Assembly: GCF_001570985.1 (NCBI RefSeq)
Contig: NZ_BCSS01000038.1
Span: forward strand, 1 to 33,977
Length of the DNA: 33,977 nt
Source of the DNA: Janibacter limosus NBRC 16128
Lineage (GTDB): Bacteria > Actinomycetota > Actinomycetes > Actinomycetales > Dermatophilaceae
Direction: 5' to 3'
In this document: piece by piece, positions 2,487-16,156 of the stretch
Layout: each line of letters begins with the position of its first letter
Position numbering within the stretch: position 1 is the first letter of the stretch
The notes under the pieces: model-generated
The model's input: the letters and a program-made list of their open reading frames with translations, nothing else
The model's database searches: none
What the model was told of the DNA's origin: nothing
Position numbers and translations under genes: made by a program

Positions 2487-3968
2487 TCACATCTTGACGC
2501 CGATGTACTTCGTCTCGAGGAACTCCTCGATGCCGGTCATGCCCCCTTCGCGGCCGAGGCCGGACTCCTTGATCCCGCCGAAGGGAGCGGCGGGGTTGGA
2601 CACGACGCCCTGGTTGAGGCCGACCATCCCGGCCTCGAGCGCCTCGCTGACCCGCAGTCCGCGGTCGAGACCCTGGGTGAAGACGTACGAGATCAGGCCG
2701 AAGGGAGTGTCGTTGGCCAGCGCGATCGCCTCCTCCTCGGTGTCGAACTCGGTGATCGCCGCGACCGGACCGAAGATCTCGGCCTCACCCATCTGCGCAT
2801 CCGCCGGCACGCCCGTCAGGACCGTCGCGGGATAGAAGAAGCCCTCGCGATCGACCGGCTCCCCGCCGAGGGTTGCCGTGGCTCCCCTGCCCACCGCGTC
2901 GCGGACGAGCTCGTCGACCTTGTCGACCGCCTTCTGGTTGACCAAGGGCCCGACGACGACACCGTCCTCGACGCCACGACCCATGGGCAACGCGCCCATC
3001 CGCTCGGCGAGCCGACGGGAGAACTCGTCGGCCACACCCCGCTGCACGAGGATCCGGTTGGCCGCGGTGCAGGCCTGGCCGATGTTGCGCATCTTGGCGG
3101 CCATCGCGCCCTCGATCGCCACGTCCATGTCCGCGTCGTCGAAGACGAGGAAGGGGGCATTGCCCCCGAGCTCCATCGAGGTGCGCATGACCGTCTTGGC
3201 CGCCAGCTCGAGGAGGTGCTTGCCGACCGGGGTCGAGCCGGTGAAGGAGAGCTTGCGCGAGCGCGGGTCGAGGATCATCGGCGCCATGACGTCGTCACTC
3301 CTGCTCGTCGTCACGACATTGACCACGCCGGCCGGCAGACCCGCCTGCACGAGGATGTCCGCGAGCGCGAGGGTCGAGAGCGGGGTCTCGGCGGCGGGCT
3401 TGATGACCGAGGTGCAGCCGGCGGCGATGGCCGGGCCGATCTTGCGCGTGCCCATGGCCATCGGGAAGTTCCACGGGGTGATGAAGACGCATGGGCCGAC
3501 CGGCTGCTTGGCGACGAGGAAGCGCGAGCCCCCGGCCGGGGCGGTCATGAAGCCACCGTCGATGCGCACGGCCTCCTCGGCGAACCAGCGGAAGAACTCG
3601 GCGGCGTAGGCGATCTCCCCCTTCGCCTCCGCCAGCGGCTTGCCCATCTCGAGGGTCATGATCAGCGCGAGCCGGTCGACGTCGGCGAGCATGAGGTCGC
3701 GGGCCCGGGTGAGGATCTCGCTGCGCTCCCGCGGCGGCGTCCTGGCCCAGTCCGCCTGGGCCGCAGCGGCGGCGTCCAGCGCGGCGGCCGCCTCGTCGGG
3801 GTCGGCGTCGGCGATCTCGCACAGAGGCTGCCCGGTCGAGGGGTCGACGACCGGCATCGTCGCCGCAGTGGTGCGCCACTCCCCCCCGATGAAGAGACCC
3901 GTCGGCACCGAGGCGATGGCCTCGCGCTCCTGCTCGCGGGTGACCTCTGCCGTATCCGTCGTGGTCAT
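2487..3968 (-). CDS. gabD: NAD(P)-dependent succinate-semialdehyde-type aldehyde dehydrogenase
   Basis: A 493-residue aldehyde dehydrogenase that would oxidise a semialdehyde to its acid; closest in pattern to succinate-semialdehyde dehydrogenases. Visible are PWNFP with Asn167, the cofactor loop SFTGSTPVGK at 241-250, the general base Glu266 in MELGGN, and the nucleophile Cys300 in NIGQACTAANR. The C-terminal block NPAAPFGGIKESGLGREGG is typical of GabD. The start is the ATG at 3966-3968, preceded by AAGGAG at 3975-3980; the long open frame upstream of it has no family similarity and is antisense to the aminotransferase. It is divergent from the aminotransferase gene with 84 bases between them, a pairing that fits 4-aminobutyrate degradation. 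A GntR-type palindrome lies in that gap. The substrate could be another omega-semialdehyde. Confidence 0.92.
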   Translation of the reverse strand: MTTTDTAEVTREQEREAIASVPTGLFIGGEWRTTAATMPVVDPSTGQPLCEIADADPDEAAAALDAAAAAQADWARTPPRERSEILTRARDLMLADVDRLALIMTLEMGKPLAEAKGEIAYAAEFFRWFAEEAVRIDGGFMTAPAGGSRFLVAKQPVGPCVFITPWNFPMAMGTRKIGPAIAAGCTSVIKPAAETPLSTLALADILVQAGLPAGVVNVVTTSRSDDVMAPMILDPRSRKLSFTGSTPVGKHLLELAAKTVMRTSMELGGNAPFLVFDDADMDVAIEGAMAAKMRNIGQACTAANRILVQRGVADEFSRRLAERMGALPMGRGVEDGVVVGPLVNQKAVDKVDELVRDAVGRGATATLGGEPVDREGFFYPATVLTGVPADAQMGEAEIFGPVAAITEFDTEEEAIALANDTPFGLISYVFTQGLDRGLRVSEALEAGMVGLNQGVVSNPAAPFGGIKESGLGREGGMTGIEEFLETKYIGVKM

Positions 3969-4015
3969 GGGTGACTCCTTCGTCAGCGTCCTTGCCGTCC
4001 CCCTCACCGTAGACG

Positions 4016-4028
4016 TATTGTCAACAAT
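4016..4028. promoter_or_regulatory. GntR/FCD-type operator in the gabD-gabT divergent promoter region
   Basis: ATTGTCAACAAT at 4017-4028 has perfect ATTGT/ACAAT arms around CA and fits the TNGTNNACNA consensus of FadR-like GntR regulators. It overlaps a plausible -10 (TATTGT, 4016-4021) for the aminotransferase gene, with TTGCCG at 3992-3997 as a weak -35. The identical 12-mer occurs at 8392-8403 in front of the divergent dehydrogenase and isomerase-like genes. The likely ligand is the GntR protein encoded at 9896-10561. Confidence 0.7.
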
Positions 4029-4052
4029 CAGACGAACAACTCGGAGGTTCTG

Positions 4053-5294
4053 ATGACAGCGTTGTCCCCCCTGCTCAAGCAGGCCACCCCCGTCACGATC
4101 GACCATGCCCTCGGCAGTGAGATCTTCGACGTCGATGGCAACCGCCACCTCGACTTCACCGCCGGCATCGGCGTCGTGAGCACCGGCCACTGCCACCCCA
4201 AGGTGGTCGCCGCCGCGCAGGAGCAGATCGGCAAGCTCATCCACGGTCAGTACACGACCGTCATGCACAAGCCCCTCCTCGCGCTGGTCGAGCGACTCAA
4301 CGGCGTCCTGCCCGAGCACCTCGACTCGCTCTTCTTCGCCAACTCCGGCAGCGAGGCGCTCGAAGCCTCCCTGCGCCTCTCCCGCCAGGCGACCGGTCGG
4401 CCCAATGTCATCGTCTTCCACGGCGGCTTCCACGGTCGGACGGTCGCGACGGCGACGATGACGACCTCCGGCACCCGCTTCTCGGCTGGGTTCAGCCCGC
4501 TGATGGGAGGGGTGCACGTCGCTCCCTTCCCCAATGCCTACCGTTACGGCTGGAGCGAGGAGGAGGCCACCGCCTTCGCGCTCAAGGAGCTCGACTTCAT
4601 CCTCGCGACGCTCACCTCGCCGCAGGAGACCGCCGCCTTCATCGTCGAGCCCGTGCTGGGCGAAGGGGGCTATGTCCCGGGCAACACCGCCTTCTTCCAG
4701 GGTCTGCGCGAGCGGGCCGACAAGCACGGCATCCTCCTGGTGATGGACGAGGTCCAGACCGGCTTCGGCCGCACGGGCAAGATGTTTGGTCACCAGCACT
4801 TCGACGTGCAGCCCGACATCATCACCCTGGCCAAGGGGATCGCCTCCGGCTTCCCCATCTCCGGCATCGCGGCCTCGCAGGAGCTGATGAGCAAGGCCTG
4901 GCCGGGCTCGCAGGGCGGCACCTACGGCGCCAACGCGGTGGCCTGCGCCGCTGCCGTCGCCACCCTCGACGTCATCGAGGAGGAGGGCCTGGTCGCCAAC
5001 TCCGCGGAGCGCGGCACCCAGCTGCTCGAGGGCGCGCGTGCCGCCGCCATCGACGGCATCGGTGATGTGCGTGGTCTCGGCCTGCTCGTGGGCAGCGAGT
5101 TCACCGCCGCCGACGGGACCCCGGACACCGCGCGGGCCGCGAAGGCCCAGCAGCTCGCTGCGACCAAGGGTCTGCTGCTGCTCACCTGCGGCGCCCACAT
5201 GAACACCGTGCGGATGATCCCGCCGCTCGTCGTCACCGCCGAGCAGGTGGACGAAGCCCTGGAGATCTGGGGCAAGGTCCTTGCGGAGGTCTGA
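4053..5294 (+). CDS. gabT: Class III PLP aminotransferase, 4-aminobutyrate aminotransferase-like
   Basis: A 413-residue class III aminotransferase, close to the usual 420-430. It would move an omega-amino group from a substrate such as 4-aminobutyrate to 2-oxoglutarate. Motifs: NSGSEA at 97-102 (PLP phosphate loop), HGGFHGRT at 123-130, Asp232 in MDEVQTGFGRTG (pyridine nitrogen contact) and Lys261 in TLAKGIASGFP (Schiff base). GGAGG at 4043-4047 is well spaced before the ATG. The gene runs divergently from the semialdehyde dehydrogenase and is followed, after a hairpin, by the DUF3830 gene, so the three are likely co-regulated. The pairing supports a GABA-like route, but class III enzymes also take ornithine, beta-alanine or 5-aminovalerate, so the precise substrate is open. 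Confidence 0.88.
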   Translation: MTALSPLLKQATPVTIDHALGSEIFDVDGNRHLDFTAGIGVVSTGHCHPKVVAAAQEQIGKLIHGQYTTVMHKPLLALVERLNGVLPEHLDSLFFANSGSEALEASLRLSRQATGRPNVIVFHGGFHGRTVATATMTTSGTRFSAGFSPLMGGVHVAPFPNAYRYGWSEEEATAFALKELDFILATLTSPQETAAFIVEPVLGEGGYVPGNTAFFQGLRERADKHGILLVMDEVQTGFGRTGKMFGHQHFDVQPDIITLAKGIASGFPISGIAASQELMSKAWPGSQGGTYGANAVACAAAVATLDVIEEEGLVANSAERGTQLLEGARAAAIDGIGDVRGLGLLVGSEFTAADGTPDTARAAKAQQLAATKGLLLLTCGAHMNTVRMIPPLVVTAEQVDEALEIWGKVLAEV

Positions 5295-5303
5295 GTCCAG
5301 TCG

Positions 5304-5379
5304 CCGATTGGAGGTGAACCCGCTGATCAATCGCCGGCGCGTTTACCTCCAATCGGAGCGATGAATGTCTGTTGGAGGT
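5304..5379 (+). promoter_or_regulatory. Hairpin with possible alternative pairing to the DUF3830 ribosome-binding site
   Basis: Between the aminotransferase stop (5292-5294) and the DUF3830 start lies an inverted repeat: CCGATTGGAGGTGAAC (5304-5319) and GTTTACCTCCAATCGG (5341-5356), 15 of 16 positions paired. The right arm also contains ACCTCCAA (5345-5352), which is perfectly complementary to TTGGAGGT (5372-5379), the ribosome-binding site of the next gene. The two pairings exclude each other. It could therefore be a translational switch, or merely an extragenic palindrome with an extra half copy. Confidence 0.55.
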
Positions 5380-5383
5380 GCGC

Positions 5384-5887
5384 ATGAGTCGGTACATGTC
5401 GATCACGCTCGAGTCGCGCGGGGTGAGCTGCCGGGCGAGGCTGCTCGACGACGAGGCGCCGCTGACCTGCGACGCCGTCTGGGACGCGCTGCCTGCGGGC
5501 GGTGACGCCTTCCACGCGAAGTACGCGCGCAACGAGGTCTACACCCTGCTCCCACGGATCACCGCCGCACCGCACCGCGAAAATCCGACGATCACGCCCA
5601 TCCCCGGCGACGTGTGCCTCTTCGACTTCGAGCCCTGGGAGATCGGCAACCCCGCCTACGGCTACGACCCGGGGTCGACGGCGCACGCCGAGCAGGGTGC
5701 CACCGACCTGGCGATCTTCTACGGCCGCAACAACCTGCTCATCAACGGCGACCTGGGGTGGGTGCCCGGCTCGGTCTTCGGCGCGATCGAGGAGGGGCTG
5801 CCCGAGATGGCGGCTGCCTGCAATGACCTGTGGCGCAACGGTTTCGCCGGGGAGCGGCTGGTCTTCGCCCGGTCCCAGATGTACTGA
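5384..5887 (+). CDS. DUF3830 family protein
   Basis: A 167-residue protein recognised as DUF3830 by its layout: YMSITLESRGVSCRARLLDD at the N-terminus, CDAVWDALPAGGDAFHAKYA, NEVYTLLP, then PTITPIPGDVCLFDF and a C-terminal NLLINGDLGWVPGSVF. To my knowledge the family is uncharacterised, is thought to adopt a cyclophilin-like fold, and tends to sit beside amidases, dehydrogenases and isomerases of small-molecule catabolism. That agrees with the setting here. There is no signal peptide, so it is likely cytoplasmic. The ATG at 5384 follows GGAGGT at 5374-5379. It is cotranscribed with or attenuated after the aminotransferase gene, 89 bases upstream. The product name is a family label; its biochemical role is unknown. 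Confidence 0.8.
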   Translation: MSRYMSITLESRGVSCRARLLDDEAPLTCDAVWDALPAGGDAFHAKYARNEVYTLLPRITAAPHRENPTITPIPGDVCLFDFEPWEIGNPAYGYDPGSTAHAEQGATDLAIFYGRNNLLINGDLGWVPGSVFGAIEEGLPEMAAACNDLWRNGFAGERLVFARSQMY

Positions 5888-6007
5888 CCAGAGAGGTTGG
5901 TCGGCCAGGCCAGCAGTCTGGAGCCGGCCGGGGCCGCTGCGTCGGTTGGGCCCAGATCGGCACCTCGATCGAAGCCTCACCCTCCGGATGGGTCTGGATG
6001 CAGGAAC

Positions 6008-7378
6008 TCAGCCCGCGAGCACGCCCTCGATCCAACGCGCGGCTGCCAGGACGAGGTCGTCGGAGTGGCGCGGTCCGATGATCTGCAGGCCGACCGGCAG
6101 CCCGGCCGCGGTGGTCCCGCACGGGATGCTGATCGCCGGCTGCTGGGTCATGTTGAAGGGGTAGGTGTATGGCGTCCAGTCGGGCCAGCCGCGCATCCCA
6201 CTGCCCGGTGGCACGTCGTGCCCGGCCTCGAAGGCCACGATCGGCATGGTCGGGGTGAGCAGCAGGTTGTGCTGCTCGTGGAAGGCGCCCATCGTGATGC
6301 CCAGCTGTGCCGCGACGGCGCGCGCCTGGAGGTAGTCGACACCGGAGCTGGTCTCCCCTTCGTCCCAGGCCCTCCCGAGGCCGGGATCGATGGTCTCGCG
6401 AGCGCCGGGCATGCCGCGCAGCAGCGTCGCGGCACCGGTCGCCCACAGCAGCTCGAAGGCCGCGAGCGGGTCCTGGAAGCCGGGGTCGGCCGCATCCACC
6501 GTCATCCCCGCGGCGGCGATGCGCGCGACGGCCGCGTCGACGACCCGGCCCACCTCGTCGTCGAGATCGACGAAACCGAGGTCACGTGAGTAGGCCACGT
6601 GCAGGCCGGTGAGGTCACGGGCCAGCTCTCCGCGGAAGGCGCGCGTCGGTGGGGCGAGCGAGGTCGGGTCGCGCGGGTCGGGCATCGAGAGGATGTCCAT
6701 GAGCAGTGCCGTGTCCTCGACGGTGCGGGTCATCGGCCCCGCGTGGGCCAGCGGGCCGAAGGGGCTCGCGGGGAACATCGAGATCCGACCGTGCGTCGGC
6801 TTGAAGCCGACGATCCCGCAGAAGGACGCGGGGATGCGCACGCTGCCACCGCCGTCGGTGCCCACGGCGACCGGCGCCATGCCGGCAGCGACCGCGGCCG
6901 CTGCGCCCCCCGACGACCCTCCTGCAGTCGTCGAGGGGTCAGCGGGGTTGCGGGTGATGCCGGTCAGGGGTGAGTCGGTGACGCCCTTCCACGCGAGCTC
7001 GGGCGTCGTCGTCTTGCCGACGAAGACCATGCCGTCGGCACGCAGCCGGGCGGCGACGGGAGAGTCGACGTCCCACGCCTGGTCCGGGTCGATGGCCTTG
7101 GAGCCGCGAAGGGTGGGCCACCCCTTGGTGAGGAAGATGTCCTTGATCGAGATGGGCACCCCGTCGAGCAGACCCTGCGGGTGACCGGCGCGCCACCGCT
7201 CCTCGGAGGCGCGCGCCTGGACGAGCGCCGACTCACGGTCGACGAGGCAGAAGGCGTTGAGCTCCCCGTCGGCCGCCTCGATGCGATCGACGACTGCGTC
7301 GGTCGCCTCGACCGGGGAGAGCTCGCCGGCCCCGTAGGCGGCGACGAGCTCGACAGCGGTCATCTCGGTGGGGTTCAT
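6008..7378 (-). CDS. Amidase-signature family amidohydrolase
   Basis: A 456-residue amidase-signature enzyme, which hydrolyses a carboxamide to acid and ammonia with a Ser-cis-Ser-Lys triad. All three residues are visible: Lys79 in PISIKD, Ser155 in TAGGSSGGAAAA and the nucleophile Ser179 in GTDGGGSVRIPA. It lacks the partner subunits of the GatCAB amidotransferase nearby, and its context is catabolic, so it is likely a free-standing amidase. Its ATG (7376-7378) overlaps the TGA of the hydroxyacid dehydrogenase by four bases, so the two are translationally coupled. It converges on DUF3830 with 120 bases between them. The natural substrate is unknown. Confidence 0.9.
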   Translation of the reverse strand: MNPTEMTAVELVAAYGAGELSPVEATDAVVDRIEAADGELNAFCLVDRESALVQARASEERWRAGHPQGLLDGVPISIKDIFLTKGWPTLRGSKAIDPDQAWDVDSPVAARLRADGMVFVGKTTTPELAWKGVTDSPLTGITRNPADPSTTAGGSSGGAAAAVAAGMAPVAVGTDGGGSVRIPASFCGIVGFKPTHGRISMFPASPFGPLAHAGPMTRTVEDTALLMDILSMPDPRDPTSLAPPTRAFRGELARDLTGLHVAYSRDLGFVDLDDEVGRVVDAAVARIAAAGMTVDAADPGFQDPLAAFELLWATGAATLLRGMPGARETIDPGLGRAWDEGETSSGVDYLQARAVAAQLGITMGAFHEQHNLLLTPTMPIVAFEAGHDVPPGSGMRGWPDWTPYTYPFNMTQQPAISIPCGTTAAGLPVGLQIIGPRHSDDLVLAAARWIEGVLAG

Positions 7379-8364
7379 GCAGGGCTCCCGTCGGTCGGTA
7401 CATATCCCAGTGAGGTGTCGACGACGTGCCGCAGCGGCTCCCCGTCGACCCAGCGGGTGAAGTTGTCCGCGAAGAGCTGCACGAGCTCATCGCGCCATCC
7501 GACGAAGTCCCCCGAGCTGTGCGGGGTGATGACGACATCGGGCAGGTCCCACAGGGGGTGGTCCTCCGGCAGTGGTTCCGTGTCGAGCACGTCGAGGGCG
7601 GCGCCGGCGATCGCGCCCTCCTGCAGCGCGGTGACGAGATCGTCGGTGACGACCGACTCGCCCCGGCCGACGTTGATGAAGCGGGCATGGTCGGGCATCG
7701 CGCGGAAGGCCGCGGCGTCGAACATCCCCCGCGTCGCGTCCGTCAGCGGGGCGATGCAGACGACCCAGTCGGCCCCGGCGAGCGCGTGGTGGAGGTCCTC
7801 CTGTGCGGTCACTGTGCCGAAGTCCGGGTCGTCGGTGCGGGCGCGGCGCCCGGAGGCGGAGACCTCCATGCCGACGGCGCGCAGCAGCCGGGCGATCGCG
7901 CGGCCGATCTGGCCGGTCCCGACGACGAGGACCCGCGAGCCCGCGACCCGCTCGGACTCGCGGTGCACCCACCGGTGGGCCTGCTGCAGCTCCCAGGAGC
8001 GCGGCAGGCCCTTGGCGATGCTCACGATCTGCCCCAGGACGTACTCCGCGATCGACCCGTCGAAGACGCCCCGCGAGTTGGTGAGGACGACCTCGCTCTC
8101 GCGCAGCTGCGGGGAGAGGATCGCGTCGACGCCCGTGGAGGCCACGTGGAGCCACTCGAGGGAGTCCGCCGCGTGCCAGGCATCGGGGATCGCGGTGGAG
8201 AAGAAGTCGTAGGCGAAGAGCACGTCGGCGCCGACGATCGCCTCGGGCAGCTCGGCTGCCGTCGCGAAGCGCACCTCGTGCGCCCGCTCGAGGACCGGCG
8301 CCATCGCCTGCTCGCTCGGGACATCACCGTCGTGGAGCACCACGACCACGGACTGCCTGGGCAT
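7375..8364 (-). CDS. D-2-hydroxyacid dehydrogenase (NAD-binding)
   Basis: A 329-residue member of the D-isomer-specific 2-hydroxyacid dehydrogenases, which reduce 2-oxoacids or oxidise D-2-hydroxyacids. The dinucleotide motif GTGQIG is at 149-154. The catalytic triad is visible as Arg234 (NVGRGESVV), Glu263 (DTEPLP) and His282 (TPHSSGD). The first gene of a two-gene operon with the amidase. The ATG at 8362-8364 has no Shine-Dalgarno; a promoter with TTGACA (8394-8399) and TACGTT (8371-8376), 17 bases apart, would start RNA at the A of the ATG, implying a leaderless message. The same promoter is covered by two GntR-type operators. Substrate is unknown. Confidence 0.9.
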   Translation of the reverse strand: MPRQSVVVVLHDGDVPSEQAMAPVLERAHEVRFATAAELPEAIVGADVLFAYDFFSTAIPDAWHAADSLEWLHVASTGVDAILSPQLRESEVVLTNSRGVFDGSIAEYVLGQIVSIAKGLPRSWELQQAHRWVHRESERVAGSRVLVVGTGQIGRAIARLLRAVGMEVSASGRRARTDDPDFGTVTAQEDLHHALAGADWVVCIAPLTDATRGMFDAAAFRAMPDHARFINVGRGESVVTDDLVTALQEGAIAGAALDVLDTEPLPEDHPLWDLPDVVITPHSSGDFVGWRDELVQLFADNFTRWVDGEPLRHVVDTSLGYVPTDGSPA

Positions 8365-8403
8365 GTTGACAACGTAGAAGCGGGTTCCTAGATTGTCAAC
8401 AAT
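8365..8403. promoter_or_regulatory. Interleaved divergent promoters with two GntR-type operators
   Basis: Two mirror-image promoters share this 39-bp stretch. On the minus strand TTGACA (8394-8399), 17 bases, TACGTT (8371-8376). On the plus strand TTGACA (8366-8371), 17 bases, TAGATT (8389-8394). Each -35 overlaps the other promoter's -10 area. The palindrome ATTGTCAACAAT covers 8392-8403, and a related site, GTTGTCAACATG on the minus strand, covers 8362-8373. A protein bound at either site would block both directions. The regulator is probably the GntR protein encoded last in the rightward operon (autoregulation). Confidence 0.72.
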
Positions 8404-8434
8404 CTGGCAATCCGATGCGAAGGGTGGTCCTCGC

Positions 8435-9181
8435 GTGGAGCTCACCGGCATCGAGTTCGACGGCCCGCTGGCCCAACGCGGCATCGGCGTCATCGCCCCC
8501 TTCGACCTGGCGCTGGAGCGAGAGCTGTGGCGATGGGCACCGCTGGAGGTCAGCTTCCACCTGGCGCGCACCCCCTTCGAGCCGGTGCCGGTCAGCCTCG
8601 AGATGGCGCAGCGGGTCTCCGACGTTGGCGCGCTGCAGGCCGCCACCCGTGAGCTGCTCGGGGTGGACCCCGAGGTCGTGGCCTACCTGTGCAGCTCGGG
8701 CAGCTTCATCCACGGGCGCGAGGGAGAGGTCGCGCTGCGCGAGGCGATCACGGATGCCGGCGCCCCGGATGCGGTCACCTCCTCGGGTGCGCTGGCCGAG
8801 GCCGTGACCTCCCTGCGCCTGCGCCGCATCTCGGTCATCACCCCCTACGACCAGCCGCTGACCGATCGCCTCGTCGACTTCCTCGGCGAGCTCGGCGTCG
8901 AGGTCGTCACCGCGCAGCACCTGGGTCTCGGCGGCGGCATCTGGCGGGTCAACTACCGCACCGTGGCCGAGCTCGTCTGTGCCGCAGACGATCCCGCGAG
9001 CGAGGCCGTCTTCGTCTCCTGCACCAACCTGCCGACCTACGACATCATCGACCCGCTCGAGCGCGATCTCGGCAAGCCGGTGCTCACGGCCAACCAGTTG
9101 ACCGTCTGGGCCTGCCTGGCACGCATGGGACTGCCGATGATGGGACCGGGCCGCTGGTTGGGGGAGGCGTTCGGACGATGA
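8435..9181 (+). CDS. Maleate isomerase/Asp-Glu racemase-like protein with both cysteines
   Basis: A 248-residue protein of the aspartate/glutamate racemase-like superfamily, in the branch of maleate cis-trans isomerases, arylmalonate decarboxylases and EutA-like proteins. Both active-site cysteines are in place: Cys86 in AYLCSSGSF and Cys196 in VSCTNLPTYDI. The C-terminal KPVLTANQLTVWACL block is typical of the branch. The start is the GTG at 8435, preceded by GAAGGGTGG (8419-8427); upstream in-frame codons overlap the promoter. Its stop overlaps the next gene by four bases (ATGA). It is the first gene of a three-gene operon with a paralogue and the GntR regulator. Whether it isomerises, racemises or decarboxylates cannot be told. 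Confidence 0.82.
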   Translation: MELTGIEFDGPLAQRGIGVIAPFDLALERELWRWAPLEVSFHLARTPFEPVPVSLEMAQRVSDVGALQAATRELLGVDPEVVAYLCSSGSFIHGREGEVALREAITDAGAPDAVTSSGALAEAVTSLRLRRISVITPYDQPLTDRLVDFLGELGVEVVTAQHLGLGGGIWRVNYRTVAELVCAADDPASEAVFVSCTNLPTYDIIDPLERDLGKPVLTANQLTVWACLARMGLPMMGPGRWLGEAFGR

Positions 9182-9909
9182 CATCGGTGACCGCCGGCAT
9201 CATCTACCCGGATCACGCCGCAGAGGACGAGTACCCTTGGGCCGCAGACCTGCTCGGCGTGCACCTGCCGGTGACGCATGTCTACGGCACGGACCTGCAC
9301 GCGGTGCCGGAGCTGCTCGACCTCGGCCGTCCGGACCGCCTGGCAGCCGGTGCCGCGGCACTCGCCGAGCACGACCCCCAGTCGGTGATCTGGGCCTGCA
9401 CCTCGGGCAGCTTCGTGTACGGGCCCGAGGGCGCGCGGCAGCAGATCGACCAGCTCGCCTCTGCTGCAGGCGTCCCCGCGTCGAGCACGAGCGCGGCCTT
9501 TGTCGACGCCCTGGCCCACCTCGACCTGACCCGGGTGGCGGTGGCCGCGAGCTACCCGCAGGAGGTCGCCACCCTCTTCGTCGACTACCTGGCCGCCGCC
9601 GGGGTCGAGGTGGTCGCCATGTCCAGCGCCGGGATCGACACCGCCTCCGAGGTCGGATCCCTCTCCCCCGCGCAGGTCATCGACCTGGCGGCGGCCCACG
9701 ACCATCCCGAGGCGCAGACGCTCCTCGTCCCCGACACCGCGATGCGTACCCTCGGCGTCATCCCCGACCTCGAGGCACGTCTGCGCAAGCCGGTGCTCAC
9801 CGCCAACCAGGTGACGATCTGGCAGGCCCTGCGGCTCGCCGGGTCCGCGCCGACGTCGACCGTGCTGGGAACCCTCTTCGCACGAAGGCAGGACCATGCC
9901 CCTGAGTGA
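9178..9909 (+). CDS. Maleate isomerase-like paralogue lacking the second catalytic cysteine
   Basis: A 243-residue paralogue of the preceding gene product; the C-terminal block KPVLTANQVTIWQALRLAG aligns directly with its neighbour. The first cysteine is present (Cys74 in WACTSGSFVYG), but where the neighbour has VSCTNLP this one has VPDTAMR, so Asp186 replaces the second cysteine. It is thus not expected to use a two-cysteine racemase mechanism; it may catalyse a different reaction or serve as partner subunit of its neighbour. The ATG at 9178 overlaps the upstream TGA. Its 3' end overlaps the GntR gene by 14 bases. Both paralogues being kept in tandem suggests they act together. Confidence 0.8.
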   Translation: MTSVTAGIIYPDHAAEDEYPWAADLLGVHLPVTHVYGTDLHAVPELLDLGRPDRLAAGAAALAEHDPQSVIWACTSGSFVYGPEGARQQIDQLASAAGVPASSTSAAFVDALAHLDLTRVAVAASYPQEVATLFVDYLAAAGVEVVAMSSAGIDTASEVGSLSPAQVIDLAAAHDHPEAQTLLVPDTAMRTLGVIPDLEARLRKPVLTANQVTIWQALRLAGSAPTSTVLGTLFARRQDHAPE

Positions 9910-10561
9910 CCTGACCCACAACCCTCGCCGCTCCACGGTCGAGCACATCGCCGACGAGCTGCGCAGCGCCGTCATGACCGGACGCCTCGAGCCCGGCGAG
10001 CAGCTCGGCGAGGCCGACCTGGCGGCACACTTCGAGGTGTCGCGGGGGCCCCTGCGCGAGGCCATGCAGCGCCTGGTGTCCGAGGGGATCCTGCACGCGA
10101 TCACCAACCGCGGGGTCTTCGTCAGCGAGCTGACCCTGGAGGACGTGCGCGATGTCTACCGCACCCGCTCGGTCATCGAGCGCGGCGCCCTGGAGGTGGT
10201 CCTCGACGAGGGGCAACGCGAGGCGACGGCGGCCGAGCTCGACGAGGTGGTGCGTCGGATGCGACGCGCGGCGGCCACGGGGGACGGACCCGCGGTCTCG
10301 GACGCGGACCAGCACTTCCACGAGGTCCTCGTCGAGGCCTCCGGCAGCCCACGGCTCATCCGGGCCATGCGCACCCTGCTCGTGGAGACGCGGATGTGCC
10401 TGGGCGAGCTGCGCACGACCTACACCGACCTCGAGGCACAGGTCGACGAGCACGAGGCCCTGCGGCGCACGATCCTCGAGGCGACCCCCACCAAGGCCAA
10501 GTCGGCCCTGCAGGCGCACCTCGACGACGCGGTGGAGCGGCTCGTGGCCAAGCGCACCTGA
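9896..10561 (+). CDS. GntR-family transcriptional regulator, FCD (FadR-like) subfamily
   Basis: A 221-residue regulator. The N-terminal winged helix (about residues 14-75) includes VEHIADELRSAVMTGRLEPG and the recognition region ADLAAHFEVSRGPLREAMQR. The C-terminal FCD ligand domain shows candidate metal-binding histidines in DQHFHEVLVEASG, VDEHEALRRTI and LQAHLDDAVERL. FCD proteins usually bind small carboxylates and act as repressors. The ATG at 9896 lies inside the preceding gene, giving tight coupling. Palindromes of the expected TNGTNNACNA type lie at 4017-4028, 8362-8373 and 8392-8403, so it probably controls its own operon, the dehydrogenase-amidase operon and gabD/gabT. The effector is unknown. 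Confidence 0.9.
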   Translation: MPLSDLTHNPRRSTVEHIADELRSAVMTGRLEPGEQLGEADLAAHFEVSRGPLREAMQRLVSEGILHAITNRGVFVSELTLEDVRDVYRTRSVIERGALEVVLDEGQREATAAELDEVVRRMRRAAATGDGPAVSDADQHFHEVLVEASGSPRLIRAMRTLLVETRMCLGELRTTYTDLEAQVDEHEALRRTILEATPTKAKSALQAHLDDAVERLVAKRT

Positions 10562-10614: not shown

Positions 10615-11817
10615 TCAGGGGATGACGATCCGCGCGCCCTCCAGCAGGTGCAGGTTGGTCGAGGCGAGGCTGAAGGCGGTCTGCCGCATCGGGATCCGCT
10701 CGGTGGTCCAGTGCTCGGCGAGCACCGCGACCTTGGAGCGCATCTCGGTCGAGAGCCGGCGGAAGGAGTCCTGCGGATCCGTCCCCACCTGACCCTGCAG
10801 CAGCCACCAGGCCCAGGCTGCTGCACCGGTGTTGGCGATGAAGTCGGGGACCACGGGGATCCCCCGTGCCACGAGCGTGTCCTCCGCGGCCCACGTGGAG
10901 GCGGCGTTGGCGGCCTCGACGACGACGCGAGCGGCCACCCTGTCGACATTTTCCTCACGGATGGCGTACGAGACCGCGGCCGGCACGAAGATGTCGGCGG
11001 GGATCCCGAGGATCGCGTCGCGGTCGAGCTGCTCCACTCCCTCGGGGACCTGCGAGCGATCGATCTCGCCGTAGACATCGCGCAGCTCCAGGAGCGCGTG
11101 GACGTCGAGCCCGGCCGGGTCGAAGAGCGTCCCCCGGGCGTCCGCGATCGCCGTGACCTTGGCACCGGCCTCGTGGAGGTACCAGGCCGCGCCGCCACCC
11201 ATCGTCCCGATCCCCTGGATGGCCACCTCGGTCTCGGGGATCGACCAGCCGAAGCCTTCGGCCACACCGAGGCAGGCCTGCGCCACTCCGTAGCCGCCGA
11301 TGATGTCCCCGAGCGGCAGTCCGTCGGTCATGACAGCGAGCCCGGCGTGGACCCGCTCGAGCGTCGCGGTCGGGTCGGTTGAGTGGGTGATGGCCGCGTG
11401 GAAGGACTGCGACAGGCCGATCTCCTCGAAGGCCCCGTCGATGAGCTGCTGGGTCACGCCGAGGTCCTCGGCGGTCACCCAGTGGCCGTCGAGCCACGGA
11501 CGCATCGCCTCGAAGAAGCGCGTGAGCACCCCGAAGGCCCGCGGGTCCTTGGGGTTGAAGTCGATGCCGCCCTTGGCTCCACCGACGGGCAGCCCGAAGG
11601 CCGCGGTCTTGGTCGCCATGCCGCGTGCCAGGTCGGCCACCTCGTCGCGGGTGCACCCGGCGCGCATGCGGGTGCCACCGGTCGCCATGTCGCAGACGAG
11701 GGTGTGCACGACCAGGTAGCCCCGGGCCCCGGTCACCGGATCGACCCAGTGCTCCTCATGCGCCGGGGCGCGGTCGACGAAGTCATGAGCCGGGTTGGTG
11801 GGGTGCGTGAGAGTCAT
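10615..11817 (-). CDS. Glu/Leu/Phe/Val dehydrogenase family protein
   Basis: A 400-residue NAD(P)-dependent amino acid dehydrogenase of the glutamate/leucine dehydrogenase superfamily, interconverting an L-amino acid and its 2-oxoacid with ammonia. Visible: Lys70 in GMATKTAAFGLP, the catalytic Lys82 in PVGGAKGGIDFNPKDP (77-92), Asp118 in VTAEDLG, and the nucleotide fold with QGIGTMGGGAAWYL at 201-214. The family position (glutamate versus branched-chain or aromatic substrate) is not clear; the length and K-rich signature are compatible with glutamate dehydrogenase. AGAGGTGG lies eight bases before the ATG at 11817. It is divergent from a LysR-type regulator, the likely controller, and converges on the GntR gene. 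It may handle nitrogen released by the neighbouring catabolic island. Confidence 0.87.
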   Translation of the reverse strand: MTLTHPTNPAHDFVDRAPAHEEHWVDPVTGARGYLVVHTLVCDMATGGTRMRAGCTRDEVADLARGMATKTAAFGLPVGGAKGGIDFNPKDPRAFGVLTRFFEAMRPWLDGHWVTAEDLGVTQQLIDGAFEEIGLSQSFHAAITHSTDPTATLERVHAGLAVMTDGLPLGDIIGGYGVAQACLGVAEGFGWSIPETEVAIQGIGTMGGGAAWYLHEAGAKVTAIADARGTLFDPAGLDVHALLELRDVYGEIDRSQVPEGVEQLDRDAILGIPADIFVPAAVSYAIREENVDRVAARVVVEAANAASTWAAEDTLVARGIPVVPDFIANTGAAAWAWWLLQGQVGTDPQDSFRRLSTEMRSKVAVLAEHWTTERIPMRQTAFSLASTNLHLLEGARIVIP

Positions 11818-11903
11818 GGATGAACCACCTCTATCCGTGGGGACCGATGACCTCAGCGTCAGCCTGTGACACCGCTCACGTCCAGTTACAGAAGATGGGC
11901 TCG

Positions 11904-11926
11904 ATCGTGCACCTCCACTGCACGAT
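11904..11926. promoter_or_regulatory. Candidate LysR-type operator
   Basis: The 131-bp gap between the dehydrogenase and lysR genes contains a perfect dyad: ATCGTGCA (11904-11911), a 7-base spacer, and TGCACGAT (11919-11926). It has the T-N11-A geometry usual for LysR-type regulators and ends 22 bases before the lysR start, so it could serve both autoregulation and control of the divergent dehydrogenase gene. Confidence 0.55.
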
Positions 11927-11948
11927 GGCGCGGGCCTATGGTGACGCC

Positions 11949-12881
11949 ATGGAGCTGTCCCTGCGACGACTGCAGATGCTGCGCGAGCTGCACCGGCGCG
12001 GCACGGTGACCGCCGCTGCCCAGGCCCTGCACTACAGCCCGTCCGGCGTCTCCCAGCAGCTGGCCCAGCTCGAGCGCGAGGTCGGTGTCCAGCTCATCGA
12101 GAAGACCGGCCGGCGGGTGCAGCTCACCGAGCTGGGGCTGCTGCTGTCCGAGCACGCCGAGGAGATCCTCGCGTCCGTCGAGCGGGCCACCACCGCCATC
12201 GAGCAGGCCCAGTCGGGCATCACCGCGAGACTGAGCGTGGGCGTGTGGGCCTCGGTCGCGTCGGGCCTGATCCCCCGGACCCTGTCCGTGCTCGCCGTCG
12301 ACCATCCCGGCATCGCGGTGAGCACGACCGAGCTGCTCCCGGAGGAGACCGCGAGCGCCGTGCGCGACGGACGGGTCGACGCGTCCTTCGTCATCGACTA
12401 CTCGAGCCGCACCACCGACTGGGAGCCCACGCTGCACCGCTCCGTCGTCGCCGTCGAGCGGTTGCACGCGGCCGTTCCCGAGGGCGCGATCCCGGACGAC
12501 ACCGTGTCGCTGACGGCGCTGGCCGAGTTCCCCTGGATCCTGGCGGGGCCGCGGTCCCACTTCGGTCGGGCGGTGCGCGCCGAGTGCCACACGCGAGGGT
12601 TCGAGCCGCGGATCGCCCACACCGTGGAGGAGCAGTTCACCGCGCTGGCGATGATCGCCGGCGGGCTCGGCGTCAGTCTCGTCACCGACCTGGGCCTGAC
12701 TCTGCTGCCGCCCGGCGTCGACGTCGTCTCCCTCGAGGAGCCGATCCTGCGCACCCTGTCGGTCGCCCACCGCGCGACGTCGACGCCACGCCCGTCGATC
12801 GACCTCTTCGTCGAGGCGGTGCGCGCGGCCGCCGAGGAGCAGGGGCTGGGTGCCGGCGGCACCCCTCCTGCGTCCACCTAG
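11949..12881 (+). CDS. LysR-family transcriptional regulator
   Basis: A 310-residue LysR-type regulator. The N-terminal winged helix-turn-helix is at about residues 2-60 with MELSLRRLQMLRELHRRGTV, TAAAQALHYSPSGVSQQLAQ and LEREVGVQLIEKTGRR. The periplasmic-binding-protein-like effector domain starts near residue 90 (LSVGVWASVASGLIP). The start at 11949 was chosen because MELSLRRLQML is the canonical family beginning; the frame is open further upstream through the operator. It is divergent from the amino acid dehydrogenase gene, whose expression it probably controls. Its TAG stop overlaps the TAG of the convergent DUF998 gene (cTAg shared at 12878-12881), leaving no room for a terminator. Confidence 0.9.
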   Translation: MELSLRRLQMLRELHRRGTVTAAAQALHYSPSGVSQQLAQLEREVGVQLIEKTGRRVQLTELGLLLSEHAEEILASVERATTAIEQAQSGITARLSVGVWASVASGLIPRTLSVLAVDHPGIAVSTTELLPEETASAVRDGRVDASFVIDYSSRTTDWEPTLHRSVVAVERLHAAVPEGAIPDDTVSLTALAEFPWILAGPRSHFGRAVRAECHTRGFEPRIAHTVEEQFTALAMIAGGLGVSLVTDLGLTLLPPGVDVVSLEEPILRTLSVAHRATSTPRPSIDLFVEAVRAAAEEQGLGAGGTPPAST

Positions 12882-13519
12882 GCAGATGCGGGTTCTTGGC
12901 TCCCCTGCGGGGCAGGCGCCAGGAGGAGACCGGCGCCGGCGACGACCTGCCAGACGATGACGGCATCGACCGCGAGACGCTCCCAGAGACCGAAGCCACC
13001 GACTCCGGTCAGCACCAGCACGCAGCCGAGCGCCGAGGCCGCCGCGCACACCCCGGTCCACGCCGTCAGGGGCGAGCCCCGTCCGGCCACCGCCACCGTG
13101 ATCGCCGTCAGCAGCACCGCCCCGCCGACGATCGCCATGACGGCTCCGAGTCCGTGCATGGTGGCCCGCTCCGAGGTCCCACCGGTCGGGTAGAGCCCGA
13201 CGATGATCGTCCCCGCCCCGTGGACTGCGGCGAGCAGCAGCACGGCCCACCGGGCCCTGGGGACGAAGGGGGCGAGGACCAGCGCCGCGAGCAGCACCCG
13301 CACCCCGGACGCGATGAAGGTCGCGTTCATCGCGACGTGCCGGGTGGACTCCGTGGGCGGGGTCCCCCCGGCGTCCATCACCTCGGGGACGCCGAGTGAG
13401 CTGATCGCGTCCTGGGTCCAGCTGTAGGGCCGCCCCTGCCAGCCCCCGACGGCCCACGCCTCACCGACCAGGTAGGCGAGGGCGAGCAGGAGCAGGAGTC
13501 CGCCGAGGCGGCGACGCAT
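12878..13519 (-). CDS. DUF998 family integral membrane protein
   Basis: A 213-residue membrane protein with about six hydrophobic segments: LLLLLALAYLVG (8-19), VRVLLAALVLAPFV, WAVLLLAAVHGAGTIIVGLY, MAIVGGAVLLTAITVAVAG, AASALGCVLVLTGVG and VIVWQVVAGAGLLL near the C-terminus. The loop SWTQDAISSLGVPE and the YPTGGTSERATMHGLGA segment fit DUF998, a family of unknown function. Its ATG at 13519 shares a base with the stop of the upstream small gene (TGATG), so it is the last member of a coupled three-gene operon headed by a lipase. Membrane location is well supported; the function is not known. Confidence 0.8.
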   Translation of the reverse strand: MRRRLGGLLLLLALAYLVGEAWAVGGWQGRPYSWTQDAISSLGVPEVMDAGGTPPTESTRHVAMNATFIASGVRVLLAALVLAPFVPRARWAVLLLAAVHGAGTIIVGLYPTGGTSERATMHGLGAVMAIVGGAVLLTAITVAVAGRGSPLTAWTGVCAAASALGCVLVLTGVGGFGLWERLAVDAVIVWQVVAGAGLLLAPAPQGSQEPASA

Positions 13520-13857
13520 CACACTCCGGACGAAGGGGGGTCCGCCGGCGGGTCCTCGCCGGCACCGCGATCGGGCGCCTGCTCCGCGACGATGTCGACG
13601 CCTGCCGCGAGACCGGAGCGCACCGTGGACACCACGCCCTGGGCCTTGCCCCCGGTGACGCGGTCGATCTCGCCCTGCGCCTTGCCCAGGAAGTCGTGCG
13701 CCTGGTCGCGGTGGTCTGCGGCGAAGCCACCGGCGGCTCCCACCGCCTGCTGGGCAAGCTTCGCCGCGGCCGCGCCGGCTGCTGCGAGGTGCTTGTCCAG
13801 CTCGAGGTCCTCGATGGCCTTGCGGGCGTCTCGCTTGTCGTTGGTCACGGGAGTCAC
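13519..13857 (-). CDS. Small helical hypothetical protein
   Basis: A 112-residue protein rich in Ala and charged residues, with predicted amphipathic helices (RDARKAIEDLELDKHLAAAG, KLAQQAVGAAGGFAADHRDQ) and a proline-rich acidic tail (GEDPPADPPSSGV). The segment DFLGKAQGEIDRVTGGKAQG faintly resembles actinobacterial 'Rv0909-like antitoxin' small proteins, but I would not assign that name. The frame starts at GTG 13857, which overlaps the lipase stop (GTGA); a second GTG lies at 13848. Its own stop overlaps the DUF998 start. Conservation of both couplings supports a real gene. Function is unknown. Confidence 0.7.
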   Translation of the reverse strand: MTPVTNDKRDARKAIEDLELDKHLAAAGAAAAKLAQQAVGAAGGFAADHRDQAHDFLGKAQGEIDRVTGGKAQGVVSTVRSGLAAGVDIVAEQAPDRGAGEDPPADPPSSGV

Positions 13858-14789
13858 TCCCCCTTCGTCGGCAGGTGGTCGTCCAGCCAGCTGATGACGA
13901 GGTCGGTGACCTCGTCGCGGTTGGTCTCGTTGAGCAGCTCGTGGCGAGCGCCCGGGAAGAGCTTGAGGGTGACGTCCTCGACGCCTCCGGCACGGAAGGC
14001 GTCGGCCGCGGCGCGCACCCCGGCGCCGTCCTTGCCGCCGACCGGGTCCTGCTCGCCCGAGATCACGAGCAGCGGCAGGTCGCGGGGGACGCGGGCTGCC
14101 AGGCCCTGCAGCCGGTTGACCCCGCCGAGCAGATCGGCGAAGAAGCCGGAGGTGAAGACCTCACCGCAGCGCGGGTCCTCGATGTACTTGCGCACCTCGG
14201 CCCGGTCACGCGAGAGCCAGGCGAAGTCGCCCTCGTCCTTGAAGGGCTTGTTGTACGAGCCGAAGGTCATGGCATCCATGAGCGTGGACGTGGTGCGGCG
14301 GCCGCGGATGCGCGACTCGACGCTCGCCAGTCCCTGGCCGACCTTGCCCAGCAGGCCGGGGTTGGCTGCTGTGCCGCTCAGGACGGCACCGACGAGGTCC
14401 TGCCCGTAGCGGGTGATGTAGTCGCGGCCGAGCAGGGAACCCATGGAGTGGCCGAAGAAGAAGAGCGGCAGTCCCGGGTGGGCCTCGGCGATCGCCCGGG
14501 TCACGGTGTGCATGTCCTCGACGACCGTGTCCCAGCCGTGGTCGTCGGCGTAGTAGCCGCGGTCCTCCTGCTCGGTCGAGGTCTCGCCGTGGCCCCGGTG
14601 GTCGTGCATCCACACGGCGTAGCCGGCATCGGTGAGCGCCTGCGCGAAGCGCTCGTAGCGGCCCGAGTGCTCGGCCATGCCGTGGGCCATCTGCACCACG
14701 GCCTTGGCGTCACCGTCCGGCACCCAGGTGCGGACGAAGAGCGGCAGTCCGTCCTGCGGGGAGGTGATGGTCGTCGTGTCGGATCGCAT
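13854..14789 (-). CDS. Alpha/beta hydrolase, monoacylglycerol lipase/lysophospholipase-like
   Basis: A 311-residue alpha/beta hydrolase of the Hydrolase_4/PldB type. The nucleophile elbow GHSMG is at 113-117 with Ser115; the acid is Asp248 in ISGEQDPVGG and the histidine His283 in PGARHELLNE. The HGMAEHSGRYERFAQAL and MHDHRGHGET blocks are characteristic of monoacylglycerol lipases. No signal peptide, so cytoplasmic. The ATG at 14787-14789 has no Shine-Dalgarno; TATTCT at 14796-14801 ends seven bases before it, which suggests a leaderless transcript. It heads a coupled operon with the small helical protein and DUF998, which may point to a lipid- or membrane-related job. Confidence 0.9.
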   Translation of the reverse strand: MRSDTTTITSPQDGLPLFVRTWVPDGDAKAVVQMAHGMAEHSGRYERFAQALTDAGYAVWMHDHRGHGETSTEQEDRGYYADDHGWDTVVEDMHTVTRAIAEAHPGLPLFFFGHSMGSLLGRDYITRYGQDLVGAVLSGTAANPGLLGKVGQGLASVESRIRGRRTTSTLMDAMTFGSYNKPFKDEGDFAWLSRDRAEVRKYIEDPRCGEVFTSGFFADLLGGVNRLQGLAARVPRDLPLLVISGEQDPVGGKDGAGVRAAADAFRAGGVEDVTLKLFPGARHELLNETNRDEVTDLVISWLDDHLPTKGE

Positions 14790-14795
14790 GCCGTC

Positions 14796-14801
14796 AGAAT
14801 A
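14796..14801 (-). promoter_or_regulatory. -10 element for a leaderless lipase transcript
   Basis: TATTCT on the minus strand ends six bases before the A of the lipase ATG, the spacing at which RNA would begin at the start codon. No ribosome-binding site is visible, in agreement with leaderless translation, which is common in actinobacteria. No clear -35 is present. Confidence 0.5.
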
Positions 14802-14882
14802 GTCGCGAGCACCCTCAGGAGACCTTCAGTTGACGGTGCAATAATTCGCGCGATTCCGCCCCCCGCCTACCCCGAGGGACCC

Positions 14883-15518
14883 ATGAGCAGCAAGAAGAAG
14901 ATGTCCGCCCGCGATGCCAAGCTCGCCGAGGCCCGCAAGAAGGCCCAGGCCGCCGAGCGCCGCCGCTCCCTCCTCCTGGCCGGCGCCGCAGCCGTGGTGA
15001 TCGCCCTCATCGGTGGTGCCGTGGGGTACGCCATCTTCAGCGAGCGTGATGACCGCAAGGCCTCCGGGGACCTGTCCGGCGTCCAGACCTTCGACTACGA
15101 GGGCGGCAACCACGTCGACGGCAAGGTCGACTACAAGGAGTCGCCGCCGGCCGGTGGCGAGCACAACGCGGTGTGGCTCAACTGCGGCACCTACGACGAG
15201 CCGGTGCCCAACGAGCACGCCGTCCACGCCCTCGAGCACGGCGCCGTGTGGATCACCTACCAGCCCGGCCTGGCCAAGGACGACGTCAAGAAGCTCGACG
15301 ACGCGCTGCCCGACACCTACACGGTGCTCTCCCCCTACGAGGGCGACATGCCCGGCCCGATCGTGCTGACCGCCTGGGGCCACCAGCTGACCGTGGAGTC
15401 CGCCGACGACCCGCGGATCAAGGGCTTCATCAAGGAGTACCGCCAGGGCAAGCAGACCCCCGAGCCGGGCGCTGCCTGCACCGGTGGGGTGACCCCCGAG
15501 ACGAGCCTGGTCAAGTGA
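14883..15518 (+). CDS. DUF3105 family membrane-anchored protein
   Basis: A 211-residue protein with a lysine-rich cytoplasmic N-terminus (KKKMSARDAKLAEARKKAQA), one membrane helix at about 29-51 (LLLAGAAAVVIALIGGAVGY) and an exported domain. The domain carries the DUF3105 core: HNAVWLNCGTYDEPVPNEHA followed by VHALEHGAVWITYQP. The conserved His and Cys residues could bind metal, but no function is established. The ATG at 14883 follows GAGGGA closely; an extended -10 (TG, one base, AATAAT ending at 14845) lies upstream. The stop overlaps the DUF305 gene by four bases (GTGA), so the two exported proteins are made together. Confidence 0.88.
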   Translation: MSSKKKMSARDAKLAEARKKAQAAERRRSLLLAGAAAVVIALIGGAVGYAIFSERDDRKASGDLSGVQTFDYEGGNHVDGKVDYKESPPAGGEHNAVWLNCGTYDEPVPNEHAVHALEHGAVWITYQPGLAKDDVKKLDDALPDTYTVLSPYEGDMPGPIVLTAWGHQLTVESADDPRIKGFIKEYRQGKQTPEPGAACTGGVTPETSLVK

Positions 15519-16156
15519 CCCCCCGGGTCGTCCTCGCCGCGGTCGTCGCGCTCGCGATCGGCCTCGTCGCCGGGCTGGCGCTCAGCCGCGTCGGCGGGGA
15601 CGACCCCCCGGGTGACGACAGCGTCGCCGCAGGCTTCGCTCGCGACATGCAGACGCACCACGACCAGGCCGTCGAGATGTCGTGGATCATCCACGACCGC
15701 ACCGACGACACGCTCGTGCGCTCCCTCGCCTACGACATCGCGCGCACCCAGTCCCACCAGTCCGGCCAGATGGCCGGCTGGTTGCAGACCTGGGGCCTGC
15801 GTCCGACCGGCCCCGGCGAGCAGATGGACTGGATGCGGGGCCTGGGTCACGATCACGGCGACTCCGGCTCGATGCTGACCGACGACGGGCTCATGCCCGG
15901 TATGGCGACCCAGGACGAGATCACCCAGCTCGAGGGGATGCACGGCAAGGAGGCCGAGATCTTCTTCCTCCAGCTGATGATCCGCCACCACAACGCTGGT
16001 GTGCCGATGGCCGAGGCCGCTCGTGACTACTCCAAGGACGACGCCGTCGAGACCCTCGCCCAGTCGATCATCAAGAGCCAGACCACCGAGGTCGAGACGA
16101 TGACCTCGATGCTTGAGGAGCGCGGCGCCAAGCCTCTGCCCGACGACGTTCCCTGA
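15515..16156 (+). CDS. DUF305 family exported protein
   Basis: A 213-residue protein with a single N-terminal membrane anchor or signal (VVLAAVVALAIGLVAGLALS, about residues 5-24) and a helical DUF305 domain. Two similar His-His motifs are visible, FARDMQTHHDQAVEMS (41-56) and LQLMIRHHNAGVPMAE (152-167), with flanking methionines, the layout reported for copper-binding DUF305 members such as CopM. A metal role is therefore possible but not shown here. It starts at GTG 15515, overlapping the DUF3105 stop. Its own TGA stop lies inside a palindromic repeat (16151-16186). Confidence 0.85.
   Translation: MTPRVVLAAVVALAIGLVAGLALSRVGGDDPPGDDSVAAGFARDMQTHHDQAVEMSWIIHDRTDDTLVRSLAYDIARTQSHQSGQMAGWLQTWGLRPTGPGEQMDWMRGLGHDHGDSGSMLTDDGLMPGMATQDEITQLEGMHGKEAEIFFLQLMIRHHNAGVPMAEAARDYSKDDAVETLAQSIIKSQTTEVETMTSMLEERGAKPLPDDVP

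Follow-up and report, generated by a model that had tools for sequence, protein, structure and literature searches.

A proposed two-operator regulon of an FCD-type regulator at an eight-gene locus of Janibacter limosus NBRC 16128

The window analyzed here is a 33,977 nt stretch of Janibacter limosus NBRC 16128 (contig NZ_BCSS01000038.1, forward strand). Its region 2487-10561 carries eight genes in four divergent units (gabD; gabT-DUF3830; dehydrogenase-amidase; AMD1-AMD2-FCD regulator), as judged from the open reading frames and from Pfam and NCBIfam profile scans. The last of these genes specifies a FadR-subfamily GntR protein with an FCD domain, and this protein (9896-10561) is very probably the local, self-controlling regulator of an eight-gene catabolic regulon, acting at two operators and most likely as a repressor. 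The sites, their rarity and conservation, their co-occurrence with the regulator and the promoter-like geometry around them were computed, and the results strongly support the grouping of the four divergent units into one regulon. The initial annotation had proposed that the FCD regulator controls the four units through three sites; the single regulon stands, with two operators and the FCD protein as the most likely regulator, but the third site is no longer taken as an operator of equal standing. The genes and the two putative operators are listed below, where the names gabT and gabD are labels only.

2487-3968, minus strand: gabD-like aldehyde dehydrogenase, similar to succinate-semialdehyde dehydrogenase (SSADH) (PF00171; best NCBIfam match SSADH TIGR01780)
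4017-4028, no strand: putative operator 1, ATTGTCAACAAT, between gabD and gabT (exact match)
4053-5294, plus strand: gabT-like class-III aminotransferase (PF00202)
5384-5887, plus strand: DUF3830 protein (PF12903, 200.3 bits)
6008-7378, minus strand: amidase-signature amidase (PF01425; NCBIfam PRK06169, 736.8 bits, over the cut-off of 506)
7375-8364, minus strand: D-2-hydroxyacid dehydrogenase family protein (PF02826, PF00389)
8392-8403, no strand: putative operator 2, ATTGTCAACAAT, in the gap that separates the dehydrogenase operon from the AMDase-like one (exact match)
8435-9181, plus strand: AMD1, similar to arylmalonate decarboxylase (AMDase) and maleate isomerase, with both cysteine motifs (PF17645)
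9178-9909, plus strand: AMD2, paralogue of AMD1 without the second cysteine motif (PF17645)
9896-10561, plus strand: FCD regulator of the FadR subfamily of GntR proteins, encoded at the end of the AMD1 operon (PF00392 and PF07729)

The regulator and its site words

The regulator gene and AMD2 share 14 nt, which makes co-transcription with the AMDase-like genes, and thereby control of the regulator's own expression, very probable. The protein exceeds the cut-offs for both of its domains, with 70.2 bits for the GntR helix-turn-helix (PF00392, cut-off 27) and 74.9 bits for FCD (PF07729, cut-off 24.3), and a palindromic operator of the TKGT..ACMA type is present near the putatively regulated genes. 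Among 43 homologues, residues D138, H142, H186 and H208 show a conservation of 95% or more (residues and motifs were counted over homologues of at least 40% identity, or at least 45% for AMD1 and AMD2, and G280b was left out of the FCD set). Asp and His metal ligands are described for FCD proteins in the portion of PMC7674646 available to us, and the four residues may form the FCD metal site, an equivalence read from the motif. One homologue, on contig C32 of genome G362 (239063-239701), carries a single in-frame TGA.

The positions given initially for ATTGTCAACAAT (4017-4028 and 8392-8403) and for the third site, GTTGTCAACATG (8362-8373, minus strand), are exact. As had been anticipated, matches to the site word concentrate at the locus when the whole genome is scanned (3,378,259 bases in 101 contigs). 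All three genomic matches to the 9-mer TTGTCAACA lie there (reversed control, 0), as do both places with ATTGTNNACAAT (control, 0), and the palindrome ATTGTnnACAAT occurs in the 3.38 Mb only as the two full sites. The shorter TTGTNNACAA (TTGTnnACAA) showed no enrichment in the genome, with 6 places against 8 for the control. Within the window, seven matches to ATTGTCAACAAT with up to three mismatches were found where 1.70 are expected, a number reached by 1 of 100 shuffles (palindromes being counted on both strands). The loose consensus TNGTNNACNA gave 12 window matches against 2.33 expected and was discarded as evidence: only two of the 12 are full sites and seven of the other ten read TCGTCGACnA, so that the excess is not specific.

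Sixteen genomes of the genus were scanned in the same way. The 9-mer has 56 matches, of which 44 are at these genes and 12 elsewhere, and the reversed control has 15; the concentration is thus real, and the scattered matches look like background. The 44 comprise three in each of 14 genomes and two in the fragmented G015 (79% complete), the third 9-mer of which, on C48, has no palindrome or queried gene nearby. In G010 the third 9-mer, at 529 kb, is the gabD/gabT site. The regulator was found at E <= 1e-30 in 15 of the 16 genomes, all of which carry the sites, while G001 is without the regulator at this threshold, the 9-mer and DUF3830.

Conservation and co-occurrence across genera

Intergenic gaps were compared among 125 loci, which do not include L092, L093, L094 and L096-L098. 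A gap was counted if both genes had at least 40% identity to the query, began no more than 15 residues from the query start, were divergent and lay within 500 bp of each other, giving 81 gabD/gabT gaps, 85 dehydrogenase/AMD1 gaps and 5 in which the dehydrogenase faces gabT instead. Several genomes occur twice (e.g. G003/L102, G011/L100, G048/L134, G169/L101, G314/L165), and unique sequences were therefore counted too. That the sites should be conserved where the genes are conserved is borne out: the palindrome ATTGTnnACAAT is found in 80 of the 81, 79 of the 85 and all 5 gaps, respectively. The six dehydrogenase/AMD1 misses are Nocardia loci with near-identical gaps that carry the one-base variant CTTGTCAACAAT.

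At least one palindrome is present in 77 of the 80 named DUF3830 loci (the best 80 of 560 relatives). In one of those without, L108, the contig begins inside gabT and the other site is the one-base variant; in another, Candidatus Yaniella (L145), the stretch has no regulator, dehydrogenase, gabD or palindrome. The last, Citricoccus zhacaiensis (L166), keeps gabD, gabT, DUF3830, the amidase and both AMDase-like genes, but the regulator and dehydrogenase are absent at the locus. Its gabD/gabT site reads ACTGTCAACACC, the sole exception among the 81 gaps, and can be read as a decayed operator. FCD-type relatives remain in the same genome (the best at 41% identity), as do two palindromes outside the locus; one of these (C3:237534) lies beside an FCD paralogue. 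This pattern supports the local regulator as the partner of the operators and is at the same time a caution, since other FCD regulators share the motif class.

The compared loci include members of Georgenia, Occultella, Rhodococcus, Nocardia, Hoyosella, Amycolatopsis, Saccharomonospora and Mycobacteroides. In distant families the gene order is scrambled, yet palindromes are found near the same core genes in many loci. For example, G040 has a second cluster, 84-90 kb away from the regulator, in which palindromes accompany the dehydrogenase and a gene for an M24 protein and one separates DUF3830 from gabT. The gabT and gabD genes of G105 are on another contig and likewise flank a palindrome. Since the palindromes are kept at unlinked or rearranged genes, local sequence inheritance alone is an insufficient explanation for them.

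Co-occurrence was assessed in 396 genomes of the order, with the top seven regulator candidates of each genome scored. The exact 12-mer is present in all 28 genomes with a regulator homologue (E <= 1e-35), compared to 38 of the 368 without (Fisher 5e-25, kinship ignored). These 28 genomes hold 56 copies, 42 of which are within 15 kb of the regulator homologue, with at least one such copy per genome. DUF3830 is found in 24 of the 396 genomes, and 23 of these carry the 12-mer.

Several observations weigh against a regulon of this kind under the local FCD protein. Genome G118, with a weaker DUF3830 match, has no 12-mer, and the 38 genomes just mentioned carry the 12-mer without a close regulator homologue (among them G409, which combines the other queried core genes and five exact sites with a regulator relative of 35%). 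Fourteen 12-mers in the 28 genomes are far from the regulator and not all are explained: four adjoin core genes (three in G040, and C13 of G105) and two adjoin genes of accessory type (G105 C3, G048 C7), while in four a queried gene is in the stretch but not adjacent (G410 at about 0.49 Mb, G231 C1, G280 C1, G058), and four have no queried gene (G105 C16, G410 at about 2.09 Mb, G214 C19, G280 C9). In G043 a palindrome lies close to a 38% regulator homologue, and the 20 kb there contain no other queried gene. The same motif also adjoins other GntR/FCD regulators (in G063, G332 and at the Citricoccus site mentioned above) and the J. limosus genome itself holds seven FCD-domain genes, so the motif alone does not name its regulator. 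The named locus set is also heavy in Nocardia, and the suggestion of repression rather than activation comes from site position only.

In two of these cases, L097 (G063; 6600-7395) and L098 (G332; 8010-8801), two exact ATTGTCAACAAT copies flank a gene that, judged by eye, specifies another GntR-type regulator; the genes after it look by eye like those of an ABC transporter. In G063 this protein is a 26% match to the FCD regulator of the present locus. Perhaps these represent a separate regulon that uses the same operator word.

The third site and the promoter arrangement

The region between the dehydrogenase and AMD1 contains, in addition to operator 2, the following features.

8362-8373, minus strand: third site of the initial annotation, GTTGTCAACATG, re-read here as probable promoter DNA
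8366-8394, plus strand: putative AMD1-AMD2-FCD promoter, TTGACA-N17-TAGATT, its -10 box overlapping the left edge of operator 2
8371-8399, minus strand: putative dehydrogenase-amidase promoter, TTGACA (inside operator 2)-N17-TACGTT, with a predicted leaderless start near 8364

The third site would be made up of the -35 box of the plus-strand promoter, the -10 box of the minus-strand promoter and the dehydrogenase start codon. It overlaps the ATG (8364-8362) if the gene starts at 8364, which was our choice of start in a frame that is open as far as a GTG at 8646. At this site, TTGTCAACATG is kept in 14 aligned Janibacter regions at a spacing of 30 or 31, and in the other 62 unique regions the part that is kept is TTGACA only. 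With all genera counted, TTGACA lies 26 or 27 bp upstream of operator 2 in 75 of the 76 unique regions; outside the genus, the best second half-site has 3 to 6 mismatches of 10 and an irregular spacing. Conservation of TTGACA alone, at 26 or 27 bp, is as expected of a -35 box, and the third site is better read as mainly promoter DNA, which in Janibacter may at best have a weak accessory role. Its standing as an operator equal to the other two is not supported by this comparison; instead of the three sites counted at first glance, the view across genera gives two operators plus a promoter element.

The plus-strand promoter candidate (8366-8394) is the only sigma-70-like match reported in 2487-10561 (one found, against a mean of 0.2 in shuffles), and the minus-strand candidate (8371-8399) fails this stricter scan of the same region. 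Among 58 unique regions, a TTGACA-N16/18-TAnnnT motif reaches the left edge of the operator on the plus strand in 57, and TTGACA-N17/18-TAnnnT is found on the minus strand in all 58; both counts allow a variable spacer and have no shuffle control. The dehydrogenase transcript may start at or next to the ATG and so be leaderless. All 58 unique dehydrogenase/AMD1 cores have CA at the center of the palindrome, versus 42 of 68 at gabD/gabT (some gabD/gabT loci with an AG center, L074, L075, L076, L078 and L079, are not in these counts), as expected if CA is needed at the former position for TTGACA; this fits a center that serves a promoter there but not at gabD/gabT. Promoter-like elements at gabD/gabT, seen by eye as TTGCCG-N18-TATTGT (plus) and TACGGT (minus), are suggestive only and were not reported by the sigma-70-like scan of 2487-10561.

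From these positions we infer binding, repression and induction by a ligand along the following lines. A dimer of the FCD regulator would bind the palindrome ATTGTnnACAAT at 4017-4028 and 8392-8403. Operator 2 would form part of two overlapping, back-to-back promoters, its center doubling on the minus strand as the -35 box (TTGACA) of the dehydrogenase-amidase promoter and its left edge overlapping, on the plus strand, the -10 box of the promoter for AMD1-AMD2-regulator, so that one bound dimer would shut both. At operator 1 (4017), the promoter-like elements around the site, those of gabD and gabT-DUF3830, are weaker. The regulator would come off the DNA in response to a metabolite of the pathway, probably a carboxylate bound by the D-H-H-H metal site in the FCD domain.

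An alternative is that all three sites are operators, with those at 8362 and 8392, 30 bp apart, forming a cooperative pair. In the available part of PMC4494728, some FadR-subfamily divergons are reported to have paired sites a constant distance apart, which are taken to be cooperative, and the persistence of TTGTCAACATG within Janibacter would fit such a pair. It is nevertheless an unlikely arrangement given what is seen outside the genus, where TTGACA persists only at 26 or 27 bp and the half-sites are poor, and since the part that is conserved is accounted for by a start codon together with a -35 box and, on the opposite strand, a -10 box.

The identity of the binding protein might also be questioned, as a different FCD paralogue could occupy the operators wholly or partly and the local FCD gene have another target. 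With seven FCD genes in the genome, and other GntR/FCD regulators adjoining the same motif in other genera, candidates are at hand, but the regulator homologue and the motif occur together in 28 of 28 genomes with three-quarters of the motifs (42 of 56) close by, and the Citricoccus gabD/gabT operator has decayed without a local regulator even though FCD paralogues are kept, all of which makes the paralogue a long shot. Least probable, to the point of being hardly credible, is that the conserved words are core promoter elements only and involve no regulator. Parts of operator 2 and of the third site do overlap -35/-10-like hexamers; however, the full palindrome exceeds what a promoter needs, is kept at gabD/gabT although the center varies, is absent from the rest of the genome, and is decayed where the regulator is missing.

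The gene set and related systems

The preferred reading, a local FCD regulator acting at two operators, makes this a real and well-conserved case of the known FadR/FCD type of local regulon, around an uncharacterised gene set. The FadR-subfamily divergons in the available part of PMC4494728 share with it the GntR helix-turn-helix and FCD domain, an A/T-rich TKGT..ACMA palindrome (in several groups with GT and AC 2 nt apart), sites in divergent gaps, and a regulator gene inside one divergent operon. They differ in that the main text of that paper lacks the words amidase and semialdehyde; its supplementary site tables and RegPrecise were outside the search, and an existing entry is possible. According to the same text, a 3-nt interval between GT and AC is typical, with several orthologous groups having 2 nt, so the 2-nt form at this locus is acceptable. 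The FadR/FCD consensus first quoted as known, TNGTNNACNA, is printed as TNGTNNNACNA in the part of PMC2230225 available. Among openly licensed PubMed Central papers, no regulator of such site words was recognized by title in those listed, no paper on DUF3830 was found, and the regulon was not found in print.

A catabolic role is suggested by the enzyme classes. The gabD-like protein scores 566.8 bits against the SSADH subfamily TIGR01780, below the cut-off of 646.35, and the gabT-like protein has no NCBIfam family over cut-off among the best 25 of 69 matches, its nearest solved chains being PuuE/GabT. The models for gamma-aminobutyrate (GABA) metabolism are likewise below cut-off (GABAtrnsam, 362.6 of 506.65; PRK11241, 529.6 of 828). 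The one solved relative of DUF3830, 3kop, is named uncharacterised. AMD1 and AMD2 belong by PF17645 to the maleate isomerase/arylmalonate decarboxylase superfamily, with 4fq7 and 3ixl as the nearest solved chains (for AMD1, the maleate isomerase 4fq7), but unlike arylmalonate decarboxylase they remain below the equivalog cut-off (69.0 and 102.1 of 225), and AMD2 is without the second cysteine motif. This motif, SC[TV]N, is present in 34 of 34 AMD1 homologues and 0 of 36 AMD2 homologues, and the first motif, in the pattern as written here, in 29 of 34 and 36 of 36, respectively; with such different cysteine patterns, the paralogues probably differ in chemistry.

The closest parallels in gene content are the clusters for ectoine and 5-hydroxyectoine (eutABCDE, atf, ssd and EnuR), which, in the available part of PMC5924519, also combine EutA-like proteins with an aminotransferase and a dehydrogenase of succinate-semialdehyde type, and in some cases a hydroxyacid dehydrogenase. 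The extra genes found in distant relatives of the locus specify an EutD/DoeA-like M24 protein, an ArgE/DapE deacylase, an aminotransferase similar to that of MocR proteins and a tartrate-dehydrogenase family protein, along with transporters and FAD-linked oxidases named by eye. The locus differs in having an FCD regulator rather than the MocR-type EnuR, and in its additional DUF3830 and amidase genes. With 106.0 and 110.7 bits, AMD1 and AMD2 fall short of the 318 bits set for EutA, as does the M24 protein of the distant relatives for EutD (391.6 of 613 bits). No EutB, EutC, EutD or EutE family is among the matches listed for ten window proteins (the best 25 of longer lists), and the ectoine hydrolase EutD/DoeA is likewise missing from those matches, the rest of the genome not having been searched. 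A designation of the pathway as GABA, ectoine or maleamate degradation was dropped, as it is not supported at the model cut-offs. In the portion of PMC5924519 available to us, EutD-type ectoine consumers are found only in Proteobacteria within its data set, which makes an actinobacterial relative of the ectoine pathway worth testing.

A broader reading, which we put forward tentatively and at somewhat less than even chances, is that the regulon marks an undescribed and widespread actinobacterial catabolic pathway under a one-palindrome control design, with operator and promoter under joint selection. Such a pathway would use relatives of ectoine enzymes, an amidase and DUF3830 on a nutrient that is an amide or resembles a cyclic amino acid, and DUF3830 would be a dedicated enzyme or accessory protein of it; one palindrome would supply the -35 box of one promoter and abut the -10 box of the divergent one. 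The regulator, operator and promoter together offer a precise and cheap handle on a conserved gene set, and a nutrient screen would identify both the substrate and the role of DUF3830.

A few further observations concern the locus and its surroundings. The gap between gabT and DUF3830 (5295-5390) contains a strong stem, CCGATTGGAGGT...ACCTCCAATCGG (-40.5 kcal/mol, z -3.29), with similar sequences in G011 (L029/L100) and L099, and in G008 this gap is reduced to a few bases. A Glu/Leu-type dehydrogenase gene and a divergent LysR gene (10615-12881) adjoin the cluster in those genus members whose stretch reaches there, and the two are also its neighbors in Georgenia, Citricoccus and Candidatus Yaniella. 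They were considered as members of the regulon (10615-11817 and 11820-12881) and set aside, being syntenic in the genus but without a palindrome in the J. limosus genome. In L030 (G004; 10645-15570), from another member of the genus, the regulator directly follows the operator; there is no AMD1/AMD2 match within the fetched stretch, and no DUF3830 match in the genome (92% complete). The tartrate-dehydrogenase family gene occurs in 8 of 34 clustered loci, and the copy in L170 (5918-7033), which exceeds the TIGR02089 cut-off, is placed directly after gabD and hints at a malate- or tartrate-like intermediate.

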